The notes under the pieces are model-generated. The model saw nothing but the letters and a program-made list of their open reading frames with translations. It searched no databases and was not told the DNA's origin. Below, piece by piece: positions 50,911 to 57,327 of a stretch of 64,000 bases of DNA. A program made the translations under genes and the position numbers. Position 1 is the stretch's first letter, and every line of letters begins with the position of its first letter. Source of the DNA: Actinomycetes bacterium (GTDB lineage Bacteria; Actinomycetota; Acidimicrobiia; Acidimicrobiales; JAMCPL01); NCBI GenBank assembly GCA_021846515.1, contig JAJZWU010000011.1:1-64000 (forward strand), given 5' to 3'.

Positions 50911-51115
50911 CGCCACCTCCTTCGGGTCGCTTCCAGGATACAACTTATACTATATCCCGTTCAGGACAGTAGCACAAGAATAAAAACCTTACCCCGCAAT
51001 CAGAAATATCGCCAGAAGCGGGAAGAGCTGGTCAAAATAATAACGCAAGACTAAAAACTCATCCCCCCGGACACTAAGGATTCAAATTGGCTATAAGATG
51101 TCTTATGGTAAAGCT

Positions 51116-51724
51116 ATGTTTCAGGTTAGAATACACGGAAGAGGTGGTCAGGGAGTCGTAACCAGCTCCGAGTTGCTCTCGGTTGCTGCATTTTTAGACG
51201 GCTATTGGGCACAAGCATTCCCAAGTTTCGGCTCTGAAAGAATGGGGGCTCCGGTTACCGCTTACTGCCGTATAGATTCTCACGAAATACGCACACATGA
51301 GCCGATTAGCATACCGGACGCTCTTATTATCCAGGATGCTACGCTCGTTCACCAAATGGATATCTTTTCCGGAGTAAGCCAAAATGCATTGGTCGTTATA
51401 AACACCCCACATTCACTGGATGACCCATCCATCGCGGCTTACATAGACGGCTTGGAAAAAGTATTCAACGTACCTGCCTCCGAAATAGCTCGCAAGCATC
51501 TGGGTAAACCTATCCCCAATCTGGTACTTCTCGGTGGGCTGGTTGCTCTGACCGGAATAATTACCTTAAAGTCGCTGCACGAGGCTATCTTAAAACGATT
51601 TACAGGTGATACCGGAGAAAATAATTACGCCGCAGCAGAAGAGCTATTTGACTACGTACAGAATACCTTCGAGTTGCCTCCTCCACTGTCTATGCCAAGA
51701 CGCGCTGAGGCAATACATGCTTGA
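51116..51724 (+). CDS. porG: Pyruvate:ferredoxin oxidoreductase gamma subunit
   Basis: Begins MFQVRIHGRGGQGVVTSSEL, the family start; an ATG at 51098 would add six residues. Segments AFPSFGSERMGAPVTAYCRI and DATLVHQMDIF match PorG. The gamma subunit contributes to CoA binding and complex assembly. No SD is visible and TATAAG lies just before 51098, so a very short leader is possible. porA starts inside its last codons (8-bp overlap), giving the order G-A-B. Confidence 0.92.
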   Translation: MFQVRIHGRGGQGVVTSSELLSVAAFLDGYWAQAFPSFGSERMGAPVTAYCRIDSHEIRTHEPISIPDALIIQDATLVHQMDIFSGVSQNALVVINTPHSLDDPSIAAYIDGLEKVFNVPASEIARKHLGKPIPNLVLLGGLVALTGIITLKSLHEAILKRFTGDTGENNYAAAEELFDYVQNTFELPPPLSMPRRAEAIHA

Positions 51725-52979
51725 GCAACTCGAAGGATCAAAGGCGGTGGCCAGGGCGGTGGCTATGTGCAGGCCGGAGGTAATCTGCGCCTATCCAATA
51801 TCACCCCAGACCCATATAGTTGAAGCGCTTGGAGCCATGGTCAAAGATACTACTCTGGAGCATTGCGAATTCATAAATGTAGAGTCCGAGTTCGGTGCCA
51901 TGTCCGTACTTATAGGAGCATCGGCAACCGGAGCGCGCAGCTATACCGCCACCTCCAGCCAGGGGCTACTATTCATGACAGAAGCTGTATACAACGCAGC
52001 AGGGCTGGGACTGCCTATGGTAATGACACTTGCCAATAGGGCAATTGGGGCGCCGATCAACATTTGGAATGATTATAGCGATGCTATGGCTGTTCGTGAC
52101 AGTGGCTGGATACAGCTGTTTGCAGAGTCGAACCAGGCAGCAGTTGATCTCCATATACAAGCGTTTCACCTGTCGGAAGAGATATCGCTTCCTGTCATGG
52201 TATGCATGGACGGATATGTACTCACCCATGCCATAGAACCGCTCGACGTACCGGATCAGGAATTGGTAGACAAATATCTTCCTCCATTTATTCCCCGCCA
52301 GCTTTTGGATCCTGAAGATCCGGTTTCCATAGGAGCAATGGTCGGTCCGGATGCTTTTACAGAGGTTAGATATCTTGCTCATGCAAAGCAACTAAAAGCG
52401 CTGCAAAAAATACCGGAAATATCCACAGAGTTTGAGAGGCTTTCAGGACGAAAGAGTGGTGGGTTGGTTCGCACTTATAGAGCGGAAGAGGCTGATACGA
52501 TAGTCATTGGGATGGGCTCAGTAGTGGGAGCAATTGAAGATGCAGTAGACGATCTACGTGATAGCGGCATATCGATTGGAGCGATCAGCATAACAACATT
52601 CCGCCCCTTCCCACTGGATGCCCTACGAGAAGCGGTCGGTAATCCCAAACGTGTTGTTATAGTAGATAGGGCATTTTCCGTCGGTATGGGAAGTATACTG
52701 GCAACCGACGTTGCTCTCGCTCTCGCCCATAATGACATACGCCTATACACAGTAGTTGCCGGCCTGGGCGGACGAGCTGTTACCGGCATTTCCCTGAAAC
52801 AATGCCTGAGTAAGGCGGTGAAAGACGATCTGGAAAAACTAACCTTCCTAGACTTGGATGTCGATGTGGTCGAGCGTGAACTGACAAGGATGGAACAGAG
52901 CAAAAGATCGGGACCTTCTGCGGAAAATATACTAAGAGACCTGGGTACCACAACACCTGAAACGGAGGGCCAACTATGA
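51717..52979 (+). CDS. porA: Pyruvate:ferredoxin oxidoreductase alpha subunit
   Basis: 420 residues from ATG 51717; the frame extends back to 51606 only inside porG. PorA hallmarks: CAYPISPQTHIVEALG, VESEFGAMSVLIGASATGAR, YTATSSQGLLFM and APINIWNDYSDAMAVRDSGW. The close match to archaeal PorA around the INIWND motif favours pyruvate over other 2-oxoacids. The subunit binds TPP together with PorB. porB overlaps its stop by 4 bp. Confidence 0.93.
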   Translation: MLEQLEGSKAVARAVAMCRPEVICAYPISPQTHIVEALGAMVKDTTLEHCEFINVESEFGAMSVLIGASATGARSYTATSSQGLLFMTEAVYNAAGLGLPMVMTLANRAIGAPINIWNDYSDAMAVRDSGWIQLFAESNQAAVDLHIQAFHLSEEISLPVMVCMDGYVLTHAIEPLDVPDQELVDKYLPPFIPRQLLDPEDPVSIGAMVGPDAFTEVRYLAHAKQLKALQKIPEISTEFERLSGRKSGGLVRTYRAEEADTIVIGMGSVVGAIEDAVDDLRDSGISIGAISITTFRPFPLDALREAVGNPKRVVIVDRAFSVGMGSILATDVALALAHNDIRLYTVVAGLGGRAVTGISLKQCLSKAVKDDLEKLTFLDLDVDVVERELTRMEQSKRSGPSAENILRDLGTTTPETEGQL

Positions 52980-54127
52980 CAAAGGGACAGGCGCCCACCC
53001 CGTACTCCGGTTCCAGAGAGGACATCGTCACCGGACAGGAATCCAAGCAAGAGCCACAACAGACACCAAGCACCCCAAGACAAGTAAAGTTTTACCAGAC
53101 AGGAAGCTTCGCGGTAGGAGGTAGACTGCTTGATGCCCCCGAACGCACTGTCCAATCAGGAATCAAACGCACAAACTCTCTCACATTGGGTCATAGGGCA
53201 TGTCAGGGATGTGGGGAGGCCCTCGGTGCACGTTACGCTCTGGATGCAGCCATGAGGGCAACAGAAAACAAGATAGTTGCCGCCAATGCAACAGGTTGTC
53301 TGGAGGTATTCACCACACCGTATCCCGAGACATCCTGGCAGATCCCATGGATCCATTCCGTATTCGGCAACGCTGCAGCAGTGGGAAGTGGAATAGCTGC
53401 CGCGCTACGGGCAAAAGGAAGAGATGATATACGCGTTGTAGCACAAGCCGGTGACGGTGGAACCGTAGACATAGGCATAGGATGCCTATCCGGCATGTTC
53501 GAGCGCAATGACGATGTGCTCTTTATCTGCTACGACAATGAAGCATACATGAATACCGGCGTACAGCGTTCGGGGTCCACTCCTCCGGCGGCCAGAACGG
53601 CCACTACCGAAGCGATCGGACGCCAACCGGGCAACCAATGGGGACAGGGAAAGAAAATGCCTCTTATAGCGATGGCTCACGAAATACCCTATGTGGCCAC
53701 AGCCACCGTGGCGGAGTTGCACGATTTGGAATATAAGATAGAAAAAGCCATGTCATTCAGGGGTGCTCGGTATGTTCACATACTGGTACCCTGCCCGCTG
53801 GGATGGGGTAGCGAGCCGGCCAACACTATAAAAATTGCAAGGCTGGCAAAAGAGACAGGCATATTCCCGGTATTCGAAGCTGAGTACGGTGAGGTAACAG
53901 GGGTATCGAAGATCAGATCTAAGGTGCCGGTAGAAGAATACCTTTTGCTACAAAAGAGATACGCCCACCTGTTCAGGCCATCCAGACAAGATGAGGTAAT
54001 CAATAAGATACAAGAAGAAGCTGACAGAAACGTAAGGCGCTTCGGCCTGCTCGGTGAGGACGGGATGGTGCAACCCTCTGACACGGATAAGGGGATATCT
54101 GCCCACTTGGGAGGAAAAGTTGGATAG
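52976..54127 (+). CDS. porB: Pyruvate:ferredoxin oxidoreductase beta subunit
   Basis: 383 residues with Cys ligands ACQGCGEALGARYAL and ATGCLEVFTTPYP, the TPP/Mg motif AGDGGTVDIGIGCLSGMFER, and YDNEAYMNTGVQRSGSTP, as in PorB. About 65 N-terminal residues (rich in Gln, Pro, Thr) precede the conserved part, more than usual. The tail after the core (about 50 residues) is also longer. It carries a 4Fe-4S cluster near TPP. The next gene starts 8 bp before its stop. Confidence 0.93.
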   Translation: MTKGQAPTPYSGSREDIVTGQESKQEPQQTPSTPRQVKFYQTGSFAVGGRLLDAPERTVQSGIKRTNSLTLGHRACQGCGEALGARYALDAAMRATENKIVAANATGCLEVFTTPYPETSWQIPWIHSVFGNAAAVGSGIAAALRAKGRDDIRVVAQAGDGGTVDIGIGCLSGMFERNDDVLFICYDNEAYMNTGVQRSGSTPPAARTATTEAIGRQPGNQWGQGKKMPLIAMAHEIPYVATATVAELHDLEYKIEKAMSFRGARYVHILVPCPLGWGSEPANTIKIARLAKETGIFPVFEAEYGEVTGVSKIRSKVPVEEYLLLQKRYAHLFRPSRQDEVINKIQEEADRNVRRFGLLGEDGMVQPSDTDKGISAHLGGKVG

Positions 54128-55904
54128 GCCATTTGCCATTACTCTTCAACCTGGATCGAGTCGTGCCAACAAGACCGGCAGCTGGAGGACTGAACGGCCA
54201 GTCTATGTCGACCTGCTTCCACCATGTAACGACGCGTGTCCCGCTGGAGAAAACATACAGGGATGGCTATACCATGCCGAAGAGATGGGATACGAGGAGG
54301 CGTGGAGAACAATAATGCTGGACAATCCATTCCCTGCAATAATGGGAAGGGTTTGTTACCACAACTGTGAAACCGCATGTAACAGAGGAAAGGTGTACCG
54401 TCCCGTAAGTAATGCGATGCTATTCGGTGAATCAGGGGCGTCATTCGGCAAGGCGGAGTACGCAGGCGTACCAGGGAGTACGTTAAGGACGACAACGCAG
54501 CAGGGGGCGTCATCTGGTCAGCGAGAGCGCGCTGATTATTTGCGGGACGGTACACTTGATGAGGCCGTAGGTATCAATGCCGTAGAACGCTTCCTCGGCG
54601 ACATTGCGCTGAAATCAGATTGGCAAATCCCTGCAGGCAAGCCGGCAACCGGAAAGAGGGTGCTTGTAGTAGGAGGCGGTCCGGCAGGACTCTCAACCGC
54701 TTACCATCTTTGGCTTTTAGGCAATGATGTATCCGTCTATGAGGCATCTGCTCAGCTTGGAGGGATGATGCGTTTTGGGATACCGGCTTACAGGCTGCCT
54801 CGCGATGTTTTGGATAAAGAAATAGACCGCATAATAGGCCTTGGTATCAACATTGAACTCAACCACAAAGTGACCGACCTGCTCGCGGAGATGGAAGAGG
54901 GAAACTACGATGCGATATTCCTGGCAACCGGTGCGGAGATCGCCAGGAATGCATATATACCGGCAGGTGATTCTTCCCACATCATAGATGCCCTCTCGCT
55001 TCTGCGCTCAGCCCAAGACATGGAACGGCCGCAACTTGGAAGAACCGTAGTAGTCTACGGAGGTGGGAATACGGCTATGGACGCAGCGCGAACTGCAAAA
55101 CGTCTTGGAGCATCTGAAGCTATCGTAGTGTATCGCCGCACAAGGGATAAAATGCCTGCCCATGACCTTGAGGTAGAAGAGGCCATTGAGGAGGGAGTAA
55201 AGATGAGGTGGCTGTCCACCATCAACAGGGTAGCCGGAGAAAAGCTCTTACTGGAAAAAATGGAGTTGGATAATACCGGCTTCCCCCAGCCGACTGGGGA
55301 GTATGATGAGCTTGCCGCCGACAGTGTCGTCCTTGCTCTTGGGGAAGAAGCTGACCTCTCACTTCTGGGGCATATCCCAGACATAGTCATCGAAAACGGA
55401 ATAGTGCAAGTAGACTCCACTATGATGACCAGCCATCCGGGCATATTTGCCGGAGGCGACATAGCTCAGAAGGATAGAACAGTTACAGATGCCATAGGAA
55501 ACGGTAAAAAGGCAGCACGGAATATAGACAATTGGCTGAGGGGAATAGCTTCGCCAGACAGTGTCAGGCATCCTCTGGCTGAGTGGTCTCGCCTAAATAC
55601 ATGGTACTATTCTGATGCGCCTGCAACTATGCGCCCCAAACTTGACGCGGTCCGCAGACAATCCACCTTTGATGAAGTGGTCATAGGATTGGATGAAAGC
55701 GAAGCTCTATTTGAAGCACGCCGGTGTATGTCATGTGGCAACTGTTTCGAGTGCGACAACTGCTACGGAGTCTGTCCGGACAATTCAGTAATCAAACTTG
55801 GTACGGGCATGCGATACGAGTTTGACTACGACTACTGCAAGGGATGCGGTATATGCGCGACAGAATGTCCATGCGGTGCAATCGACATGGTTCCTGAAGA
55901 TTAA
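54120..55904 (+). CDS. GltD-like NAD(P)H oxidoreductase fused to a PorD-type ferredoxin domain, with an inserted 54-codon element
   Basis: The start is TTG 54120 with SD GGGAGGAAAAG. Order: N-terminal 4Fe-4S domain (PPCNDACPAGENIQGWL, CYHNCETACNR), FAD domain (VLVVGGGPAGLSTAYHLW), NAD(P) domain (VVVYGGGNTAMDAARTAKRL), and a C-terminal 8-Cys ferredoxin (CMSCGNCFECDNCYGVCP; YCKGCGICATECPCGAIDM) equivalent to the PorD subunit. It probably shuttles electrons between ferredoxin/PFOR and NAD(P)H. Between CETACNRGK and LDEAVGINAVERFLGD, contiguous in relatives, lies a 54-residue insert encoded by element copy B; the frame is kept. Whether the insert is translated or removed is unknown. Confidence 0.9.
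   Translation: MDRPFAITLQPGSSRANKTGSWRTERPVYVDLLPPCNDACPAGENIQGWLYHAEEMGYEEAWRTIMLDNPFPAIMGRVCYHNCETACNRGKVYRPVSNAMLFGESGASFGKAEYAGVPGSTLRTTTQQGASSGQRERADYLRDGTLDEAVGINAVERFLGDIALKSDWQIPAGKPATGKRVLVVGGGPAGLSTAYHLWLLGNDVSVYEASAQLGGMMRFGIPAYRLPRDVLDKEIDRIIGLGINIELNHKVTDLLAEMEEGNYDAIFLATGAEIARNAYIPAGDSSHIIDALSLLRSAQDMERPQLGRTVVVYGGGNTAMDAARTAKRLGASEAIVVYRRTRDKMPAHDLEVEEAIEEGVKMRWLSTINRVAGEKLLLEKMELDNTGFPQPTGEYDELAADSVVLALGEEADLSLLGHIPDIVIENGIVQVDSTMMTSHPGIFAGGDIAQKDRTVTDAIGNGKKAARNIDNWLRGIASPDSVRHPLAEWSRLNTWYYSDAPATMRPKLDAVRRQSTFDEVVIGLDESEALFEARRCMSCGNCFECDNCYGVCPDNSVIKLGTGMRYEFDYDYCKGCGICATECPCGAIDMVPED
54393..54555 (+). mobile_element. Structured palindromic element, copy B, in frame inside the gltD-porD fusion
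   Basis: Termini GTGTACCGTCCCG (54393-54405) and CGGGACGGTACAC (54543-54555) are perfect inverted repeats; in RNA the stem extends to 21 pairs with two G-U wobbles. Excision of 162 nt (54393-54554) joins AAG to CTT and restores the expected NRGKLDEAVGI. Inner hairpin: GGCGTAC-CAGGGA-GTACGTT. Homologous end to end with copy A (minus strand, 22905-23068). The frame through it is open and encodes ESGASFGKAEYAGVPGS and a Thr/Gln/Arg-rich remainder. Confidence 0.88.
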
Positions 55905-56231
55905 TACGTCGTAATATTTCTTACTGATATCAACTACGGCCACCCAATCCATACCGGTATGATTCCTGGCAATCGATACGTACGCAATAGTAAGAAAATT
56001 GCTGGTGTAACTACGGCATAATGTCACCTGTGAAAGTAGGTGTTTTCCCCGTTGCAACCGGCAAAAAATAGATACATAATAAAGTCATGGGTAGCGTGTC
56101 CTGGATGGTAGCGTTCCAGCCGATGGTGCAAGACATGGTTGGCCGTATCGCCTGGAGCACCTCTACCATGTTAGCTAGATGAACCATGTAATCCTGGTTG
56201 GCCACGGGCACGCCAGAAAGGAGATTGACAG
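55905..56231. other. Intergenic region with a spaced inverted repeat
   Basis: No gene is supported in these 327 bp after the por operon. TTTCTTACT (55917-55925) and AGTAAGAAA (55989-55997) form a perfect 9-bp inverted repeat 63 bp apart, perhaps part of a terminator or regulatory fold for the por transcript. The rest shows no clear pattern. Confidence 0.4.
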
Positions 56232-57119
56232 ATGGAAGAGGCAGGCAACTACGCAAGTAGTGATAGCAGCAGATCAAGGCTATCGGTCGTAGGTCACCTT
56301 CAAGAAATGACCAATAATGTAGCAATGAGCGGTGGGGGTAAACACGGGGTCAAGGCAGGTGGCGAAGCAGGCAGCAAGATAACATACCCGTTCGAGGCAG
56401 GGAGACCACTTGCAGTTATCCTCATGGGCTATCCGGGATCAGGCAAACACGTCCATGCAGAAAGCATTGCTCATAGGTTGGGACTACCTCATATTTCTAT
56501 GGGTCATCTACTAAAAAGAGCCTCGGCAATGGATTCGCATATCGCTGATATTGCTGCACGTCACAGACACGTAGGCGCGCTGCTACCGGATGAACTGGTC
56601 GTCGACATACTGGCTGAAGCACTGCCAGAAGACCACAATCCCAATGGATTCGTCCTGCAGGGCTTCCCCAGGACACTCCGCCAGGCCGAAGCGCTAAGCG
56701 AGCTGAGCGGAGCATACGATATCGGTCTTATATTAAACTTAGTCGTCCCACGATCAATTCTTGTACATCGGTTGCTTGCACGCAGAAGCTGCCAAGAGTG
56801 CGGAATGTCTTACGGTACCGTCGGCGAAACAATAATACCGGAACGCTGCAACTACTGTGGCGGCAAGATAGGCCCTATAGATGGCTACACCGCCAAATCA
56901 CTGCATGACAGATTGGTTCATTACGATCATCTGTTCAAGCCGGTCATTGCCAGACTCGCCTCCATTCATCCATTCGTATCCGTAGATGGGGTCGGCCTGC
57001 CTGAATCTGTATCAGCACGCCTTACTAAAGCCATAGCGGCACATCTTGGACATCCATCTGTGCCGGAAAGTAGCGCTATCGTTAACAGTAACCTATCTCT
57101 GGGGCAGACAGGGGCATGA
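56232..57119 (+). CDS. Adenylate-kinase-like protein with atypical P-loop
   Basis: A 295-residue protein with SD AAAGGAG before ATG 56232. About 55 polar residues precede the kinase domain. AVILMGYPGSGKHVHAESIA aligns with the Adk loop GAPGAGKGTQA but has His-Val after the Lys. GFVLQGFPRTLRQAEAL is the Adk signature (DGFPRT) with Gln for Asp. The lid has four Cys (CQECGMSY; CNYCGGK), a zinc lid as in Gram-positive Adk. The Gln and His substitutions at conserved catalytic positions make normal AMP kinase activity uncertain; it may be a paralogue with a different role. Confidence 0.82.
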   Translation: MEEAGNYASSDSSRSRLSVVGHLQEMTNNVAMSGGGKHGVKAGGEAGSKITYPFEAGRPLAVILMGYPGSGKHVHAESIAHRLGLPHISMGHLLKRASAMDSHIADIAARHRHVGALLPDELVVDILAEALPEDHNPNGFVLQGFPRTLRQAEALSELSGAYDIGLILNLVVPRSILVHRLLARRSCQECGMSYGTVGETIIPERCNYCGGKIGPIDGYTAKSLHDRLVHYDHLFKPVIARLASIHPFVSVDGVGLPESVSARLTKAIAAHLGHPSVPESSAIVNSNLSLGQTGA

Positions 57120-57120
57120 T

Positions 57121-57327
57121 ATGAGACAACCGTTTAGTTGCCCGGCATGCGGTGGAGACGACTTCGAGATTGTTCGCAGCAACGACGATCGGATTAACTT
57201 CCTCTGTACCAACTGCGGAGCATGCTGGCATCAATGGGCGGGGTACCTAATCCGAGTCAGTGAACTTAACGGCTGCAGCGGATGCACCCACACTCATCCC
57301 TGTATCGCTCCGGTAAAAACAGCCTAA
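57121..57327 (+). CDS. Small zinc-ribbon protein
   Basis: 68 residues from ATG 57121, two bases after the adenylate-kinase-like stop. Cys pairs CPACGG and CTNCGACW form a zinc ribbon, followed by CSGCTHTHPC. The frame extends upstream only within the preceding gene. Probably co-transcribed with it. Function unknown; such ribbons often bind nucleic acid or act in assembly. Confidence 0.65.
   Translation: MRQPFSCPACGGDDFEIVRSNDDRINFLCTNCGACWHQWAGYLIRVSELNGCSGCTHTHPCIAPVKTA

Follow-up and report, generated by a model that had tools for sequence, protein, structure and literature searches.

An adenylate-kinase-like paralogue with a concertedly altered active site, probably a pseudo-adenylate kinase, in one genus of the Acidimicrobiales

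Adenylate kinase (ADK) is a textbook enzyme, and its active site is among the best understood. Thr15, Asp33 and Asp84 serve magnesium (E. coli numbering is used throughout for comparisons). One member of the family, human AK4, is reportedly an enzymatically inactive adenylate kinase that interacts with the ADP/ATP translocase. It resembles the protein described here, by description alone, as an ADK-family protein said to bind rather than to catalyse; it differs in being eukaryotic and mitochondrial. Another human relative, AK2A, is described as binding the flavoprotein AIFM1 and raising its NADH oxidoreductase activity (PMC7617965). Here the likeness is the link between an ADK and an NADH-oxidising flavoprotein, at which the gene order reported below might hint; AK2, however, is an active enzyme, and its contact with AIFM1 is given as a short C-terminal strand (PMC7617965). 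Among bacteria, PumH is, again by description, an ADK homologue in a non-housekeeping context (PMC10127198); unlike the protein proposed here, it has been proposed as the source of a phosphorylated nucleoside. Among the matches listed from the open-licence literature, no bacterial pseudo-adenylate kinase was noticed.

The roles of further ADK residues are described in the literature. Thr31 and Gly85 bind the adenine of AMP, and Arg88 and Gln92 also hold AMP; Lys13, which orients phosphates, holds those of ATP together with Arg123, Arg156 and Arg167, all as described in PMC3369945. Residues 154-161 are presented as the catalytic loop in PMC12548092, and a contact between Arg36 and Asp33 is mentioned in PMC4325324. 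According to its title, PDB entry 8q2b documents that D158A changes the stacking of the catalytic arginines.

The window analysed here is the whole stretch of 64,000 nucleotides from contig JAJZWU010000011.1 (assembly GCA_021846515.1). Its genome is called G000, and G001 to G004 are four other genomes of the same genus of uncultivated actinobacteria. The ORF translation of the window contains an ADK-like paralogue of 295 residues, followed directly by a small ribbon-like ORF. Their features are collected in Table 1.

Table 1. Coordinates of the ADK-like paralogue, its signals and its neighbours in the window
Feature	Position	Strand	Remarks
2-Oxoacid:ferredoxin oxidoreductase gamma, alpha, beta and Pyr_redox_2/4Fe-4S subunit	51098..55904	+	operon, context
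Promoter-like site TTGCAA-N17-CATAAT	56052..56080	+	upstream of the gene in 5/5 genomes as TTGCMA-N17-CATAAT
Shine-Dalgarno-like AGAAAGGAG	56215..56223	+	8 bases before ATG
ADK-like paralogue	56232..57119	+	ORF, motifs, Pfam match, relatives in 4 other assemblies
N-terminal extension, 56 residues	56232..56399	+	sequence variable; missing in G001
Altered P-loop GYPGSGKHVHA (residues 66-76)	56427..56459	+	Lys kept; G14, T15, Q16 replaced
QGFPRT (residues 143-148) for DGFPRT	56658..56675	+	EGFPRT in G002 and G004
Four-Cys lid: C187, C190, C206, C209	56790..56858	+	cysteines kept in 5/5 paralogues
Replaced catalytic loop, E. coli 154-161	56871..56894	+	R156 to I/V, D158 to G, D159 to Y; limits as described in PMC12548092
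Ribbon-like ORF, 68 residues, eight cysteines	57121..57327	+	adjoins the paralogue in 5/5 genomes

The paralogue passes the Pfam model ADK (PF00406) with 96.4 bits against a cut-off of 26.8. It fails TIGR01351 (132.5 bits, curated cut-off 168) and NF001380 (133.4, cut-off 251). The normal Adk of the same genome passes TIGR01351 with 218.9 bits and narrowly misses NF001380 (241.8 against 251). The match of the paralogue to Pfam ADK_lid stays below the cut-off (13.6 bits, cut-off 26.6). The first-pass annotation had described the zinc lid as retained, and all four of its cysteines are indeed there in all five paralogues; by its cysteines the protein would be a zinc-lid ADK, the zinc being putative. 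With the zinc-lid ADKs (PDB 1zin, PF00406) it shares a core of about 210 residues, the P-loop lysine, Gly85, Arg88, Gln92, Arg119, Arg123, Arg167 and the lid. Unlike them, it has 11 near-invariant columns replaced and its catalytic loop rewritten, is rich in histidine, stays below the TIGR01351 cut-off and, in four of the five genomes, starts with a long variable N-terminus. An AlphaFold2 model of the paralogue is of low confidence (pLDDT 64.3, pTM 0.57); the 50 PDB matches listed for this weak model are exclusively adenylate kinases.

The genome also has a canonical adk, as a search for one proposed in the first-pass annotation revealed; its lack would have spoken against a changed activity. 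It lies on a different contig (G000:C14:13054-13605, 215 aa), after a secY-like and before map-like and IF-1-like ORFs (names by sequence reading), and the paralogue thus stands away from the usual context of adk, as had been stated. This gene accounts for the housekeeping function. PF00406, searched genome-wide, matched the paralogue and the canonical adk, and no third locus.

The altered P-loop and the QGFPRT motif had been taken at first sight as signs of a changed activity. Both are present as claimed. They are, however, part of a concerted replacement of the active site in all five paralogues, which makes a changed activity likely, with lost phosphoryl transfer as its simplest form. The early reading was right, but it understated the extent of the change. 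For comparison, 80 distinct ADKs from 88 loci were aligned; the 88 loci are a non-random sample from the order, class and phylum, most of them chosen as best matches to PF00406, to the paralogue or to its profile. Thirty-six columns are near-invariant in the 80 ADKs (at least 95% one residue). All five paralogues keep 24 of them and replace 11 (G14, T15, Q16, T31, R36, R71, D84, R156, D158, D159 and T175); one is mixed. R36 has become K, D84 Q or E, R156 I or V, D158 G, D159 Y, and T175 F. Kept in every paralogue are K13, G85, Pro87, R88, Q92, R119, R123 and R167, as well as the lid cysteines; three of these cysteines count towards the 24 kept columns.

Ten positions (G14, T15, Q16, T31, D33, R36, D84, R156, D158 and D159) separate the two groups: the paralogues depart at all ten, and each of the 80 ADKs, gaps uncounted, at one position at most. 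The P-loop motif GxxGxGKGT is not matched by the paralogue; Lys13 is kept, and G14 and T15, intact in all 79 ADKs that have the P-loop region (of 80), are replaced in all five. The same holds for R156, D158 and D159, intact in 80 of 80 ADKs, and for D84, intact in 79; one of the 80 also has Glu84. Asp33 (72 of 80 ADKs) gives way to H, G, G, A and A in the five paralogues. The changes of T31 to M and R36 to K and a new Arg37 are uniform across them. The paralogues from the four other assemblies are 64-87% identical over the core to that of the window and show the same motif changes, which excludes an assembly error. Read from the alignment, the pattern is that of a metal side and a catalytic loop apparently lost, with much of the phosphate-binding ring left.

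The best explanation, which we hold to be reasonably probable, is that the paralogue is a pseudo-adenylate kinase whose pocket is partly kept and whose phosphoryl transfer is lost, and that it has a binding or regulatory role, perhaps together with the ribbon protein. We infer the loss of catalysis with some force; ligand and partner are conjectural. Lacking the magnesium-side aspartates and threonine as well as Arg156, the protein would not transfer phosphate at a useful rate. Between core and lid it would nevertheless have room for a nucleotide or some other phosphate-bearing ligand to bind, and a ligand-driven change of shape would let it act on a partner. For the latter, the nearest candidate is the cysteine-rich ribbon protein, whose gene follows immediately. 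Some details fit this less well. The exchange of Arg36 for Lys and, in two of the five, of Asp84 for Glu is conservative, and the phosphate and AMP contacts that are kept exceed the needs of a mere scaffold. The partnership with the ribbon is deduced from gene order in a single genus.

The kept residues could also serve an active kinase, in which the ATP side is functional and a different small molecule accepts the phosphate at the altered AMP side. Lys13 and the three arginines 119, 123 and 167 would be expected there, and so would a uniform M, K and R at positions 31, 36 and 37; moreover, ADK homologues do occur in other pathways, such as PumH in the pseudouridimycin cluster, as described in PMC10127198. 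The losses, however, are not confined to the acceptor side: they hit the shared catalytic loop and Thr15 of the P-loop. Further, positions 14 (H, Q or D) and 33 (H, G or A) drift between members of the genus, a freedom hardly to be expected of a tuned active site. We rate such a kinase as rather unlikely.

Could the paralogue simply be a duplicate on its way to a pseudogene? The loss of catalytic residues and the variable N-terminus, missing in G001, could be seen in this light. The paralogue is, however, under purifying selection. Where dS could be measured, in five of the ten pairs, omega of its core is 0.070, 0.074, 0.084, 0.104 and 0.107; one of these pairs has a dS of 2.69, which is near saturation, and the other five pairs are saturated. 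The frame is open in all five genomes, core columns are invariant, start signals are found in four of five genomes and a promoter-like site in five of five. As far as sequence can rule out a pseudogene, omega, open frames and conserved signals do so, and decay is extremely improbable. The normal adk has an omega of 0.027-0.043 in the four closest pairs; with G005, the sole other genome of the family examined, two pairs were measurable and reach 0.118 and 0.136. In close pairs, the paralogue is thus less constrained than the normal adk, which is a further point against the preferred reading.

The descent of the paralogue is less clear. A phylogeny, which the first-pass annotation had suggested as a check, unites the five paralogues in one clade (SH-aLRT 100), which has a stem 2.58 changes per column long and stands apart from the genus's own adk, but the point of attachment is not to be trusted. 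The tree of 81 rows is a quick maximum-likelihood one without bootstrap, six gappy or divergent rows of the 80 ADKs were dropped by choice, and the row of G000 was flagged for odd composition. With these reservations and such a long stem, we claim no source for the paralogue. A long stem followed by a moderate rate fits a burst of change at a functional shift. A recent copy of the genome's own adk was rejected, since the tree places the paralogue elsewhere and since it has P at position 9; among the 50 ADKs of the order and class that include this region, 49 have Q there. Other origins were considered and dismissed. For a phage, 99 stretches of viral contigs matched a pattern, and none encodes a relative; for a plasmid, 213 records matched, but identity stayed below 60% throughout and no match spanned 80% of the query. 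A defence protein was dismissed as well, the matches to IetA being of P-loop length only (E 0.005).

The pair of paralogue and ribbon was present in all five genomes examined of the genus and was not seen elsewhere. The genomes are 67-93% complete, which makes the presence in five of five notable. A profile of the five paralogues gave 493 and 481 bits in two members of the genus among 296 genomes of the class, and the next best match, of 152 bits, was at the level of canonical ADKs. Among 296 genomes of the phylum, a set overlapping with the former, the window's own gene alone exceeded 145 bits. In G005 a match at canonical level was all that was found; as this genome is 85% complete, the absence is no proof. 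Two peptide patterns of the lid, searched in 84,980 species genomes, matched 81 stretches. Four of these encode relatives, all in metagenome-assembled Actinobacteria and on contigs equal in length to those of G001-G004; relatives without those peptides escape such a scan.

The histidine content is the least explained feature of the paralogue. The five cores contain 11-16 histidines, i.e., 4.6-6.7%. For 75 ADKs the mean is 1.54% (sd 0.61, maximum 2.7%), and the normal Adks from the genus and from G005 have 0.9-1.4%. Nine histidines are invariant in the five paralogues. Six of them, at positions 16, 52, 76, 118, 165 and 173, occur in no more than two ADKs each; one is usual in ADKs, and the remaining two are found towards the C-terminus, where a few ADKs have histidine as well. 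Positions 118 and 165 belong to the lid-hinge contacts as described in PMC3369945 and PMC12548092; position 118 varies widely among ADKs. Enrichment and invariance would suit a protein that responds to metal or protons, with histidines in the place of ADK residues and nucleotide binding no longer its purpose. Lys13 and the arginines that bind phosphate are, however, equally invariant, and we consider this idea quite improbable.

The start of the paralogue is backed by AGAAAGGAG, which ends eight bases upstream. Ribosome sites of the AAAGGAG type also precede the gene in G002, G003 and G004, so that four of five starts have one; in G001 it is missing. In that genome (L033:8176-8311) the leader and the N-terminal extension appear to be deleted, and an ATG stands seven bases after the conserved -10 element, placed as in a leaderless message. 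Further upstream, TTGCMA-N17-CATAAT is found in all five genomes. Sites of this kind are not enriched in the window (2 found, shuffle mean 2.1); the weight of this one rests on its conservation, judged without a computed statistic. By eye, and likewise without a statistic, its flanks are less conserved between the two subgroups. From the conserved site we infer a transcription unit of its own for the pair, which paralogue and ribbon probably form independently of their neighbours; its transcript is predicted to begin just past 56080. No known RNA element scored above its gathering score between 54000 and 58500.

The neighbouring 68-residue ribbon ORF had been said to begin two bases after the paralogue. 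The ORF is there; the gap, however, is a single base, as the stop ends at 57119 and the ATG begins at 57121. The ORF has CxxC pairs, for which the putative metal would be zinc or iron-sulphur, and all of its eight cysteines are kept in the five genus members and in one more distant relative. It passes none of the curated families: Pfam Zn_Ribbon_TF scores 20.7 against 29, and the best NCBIfam model 24.6 against 37. A single-sequence model is weak (pLDDT 64.6, pTM 0.49). Ribbons were found in 10 of 59 genomes (E up to 0.01), namely in the five of the genus and in five others at 35-41% identity. In the distant relative, from another family of the order, the ribbon forms the C-terminal part of a Pyridox_ox_2 protein (L046:1054-1746). 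The start is peculiar in G002 and G004 (L039:6700-6938 and L040:6700-6938). There, no ATG, GTG or TTG occurs between the preceding in-frame stop and the first cysteine; an ACG lies two bases past the stop of the ADK-like gene, behind GGAAGGAG and near the position of the ATG in G000. Translation may start at this ACG by coupling. Over 65 codons, the two ribbons differ by 10 synonymous and 1 non-synonymous exchanges.

The pair adjoins the oxidoreductase operon in G000, G001 and G003, where the contig of the last starts inside the beta gene. In G002 and G004 the operon is inverted relative to the pair, which then lies at the operon's other end; despite this opposite orientation, the ribbon directly follows the paralogue in all five genomes. 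Such proximity would suit a different role for the paralogue: it could serve the NAD(P)H-linked 2-oxoacid:ferredoxin oxidoreductase as an adaptor or as an allosteric subunit, by analogy with AK2A and AIFM1. The last subunit of the operon has a Pyr_redox_2 domain, and the human precedent is described in PMC7617965. Yet the same four-gene operon exists in G116 and G120, genomes from a genus of another family (L128 and L127; 49-73% identical by subunit, the beta subunit 67-73%), with no ADK-like or ribbon gene beside it in the stretches read; the contig of G120 ends about 1.1 kb past the operon. Each of these genomes has one ADK match, at canonical level; the ribbon was sought beside the operon only. 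The operon thus needs no pair, at least not an adjacent one, which lowers the case for an obligate subunit. In addition, an inversion can passively leave genes side by side, a promoter-like site belongs to the pair itself, and the contact of AK2A, given in PMC7617965 as a short C-terminal strand, would need a counterpart in the paralogue. An adaptor of this kind would be improbable.

Two other neighbours deserve mention. An ORF on the opposite strand, window:57573-58268(-), adjoins the pair in all five genomes and is 71-94% identical in the four others. It has no Pfam match at E 0.001, and its product is putatively secreted or membrane-anchored. At window:42054-46288 lie two adjacent ORFs which resemble a DabB/DabA-type pair for inorganic carbon uptake.

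To return to the pseudo-adenylate kinase, the features of the locus can be combined in a sensor: the noncatalytic pocket would read a nucleotide, titratable histidines at catalytic positions and at the lid hinge (16, 52, 76, 118, 165 and 173) would make its closing dependent on protons or metal, and the coupled eight-cysteine ribbon would carry the signal or the metal. As a whole this is a long shot. If it were true, and if the habitat were acid mine sediments, which is a guess, a single protein would join energy state and internal pH. An annotation based on PF00406 alone would label the paralogue adk. If our preferred reading is true, a conserved paralogue sets catalysis apart from binding and lid closure, a separation that usually takes mutagenesis. 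It would be a natural bacterial case in which the catalytic residues were dropped as a set while most of the nucleotide-contacting arginines stayed.
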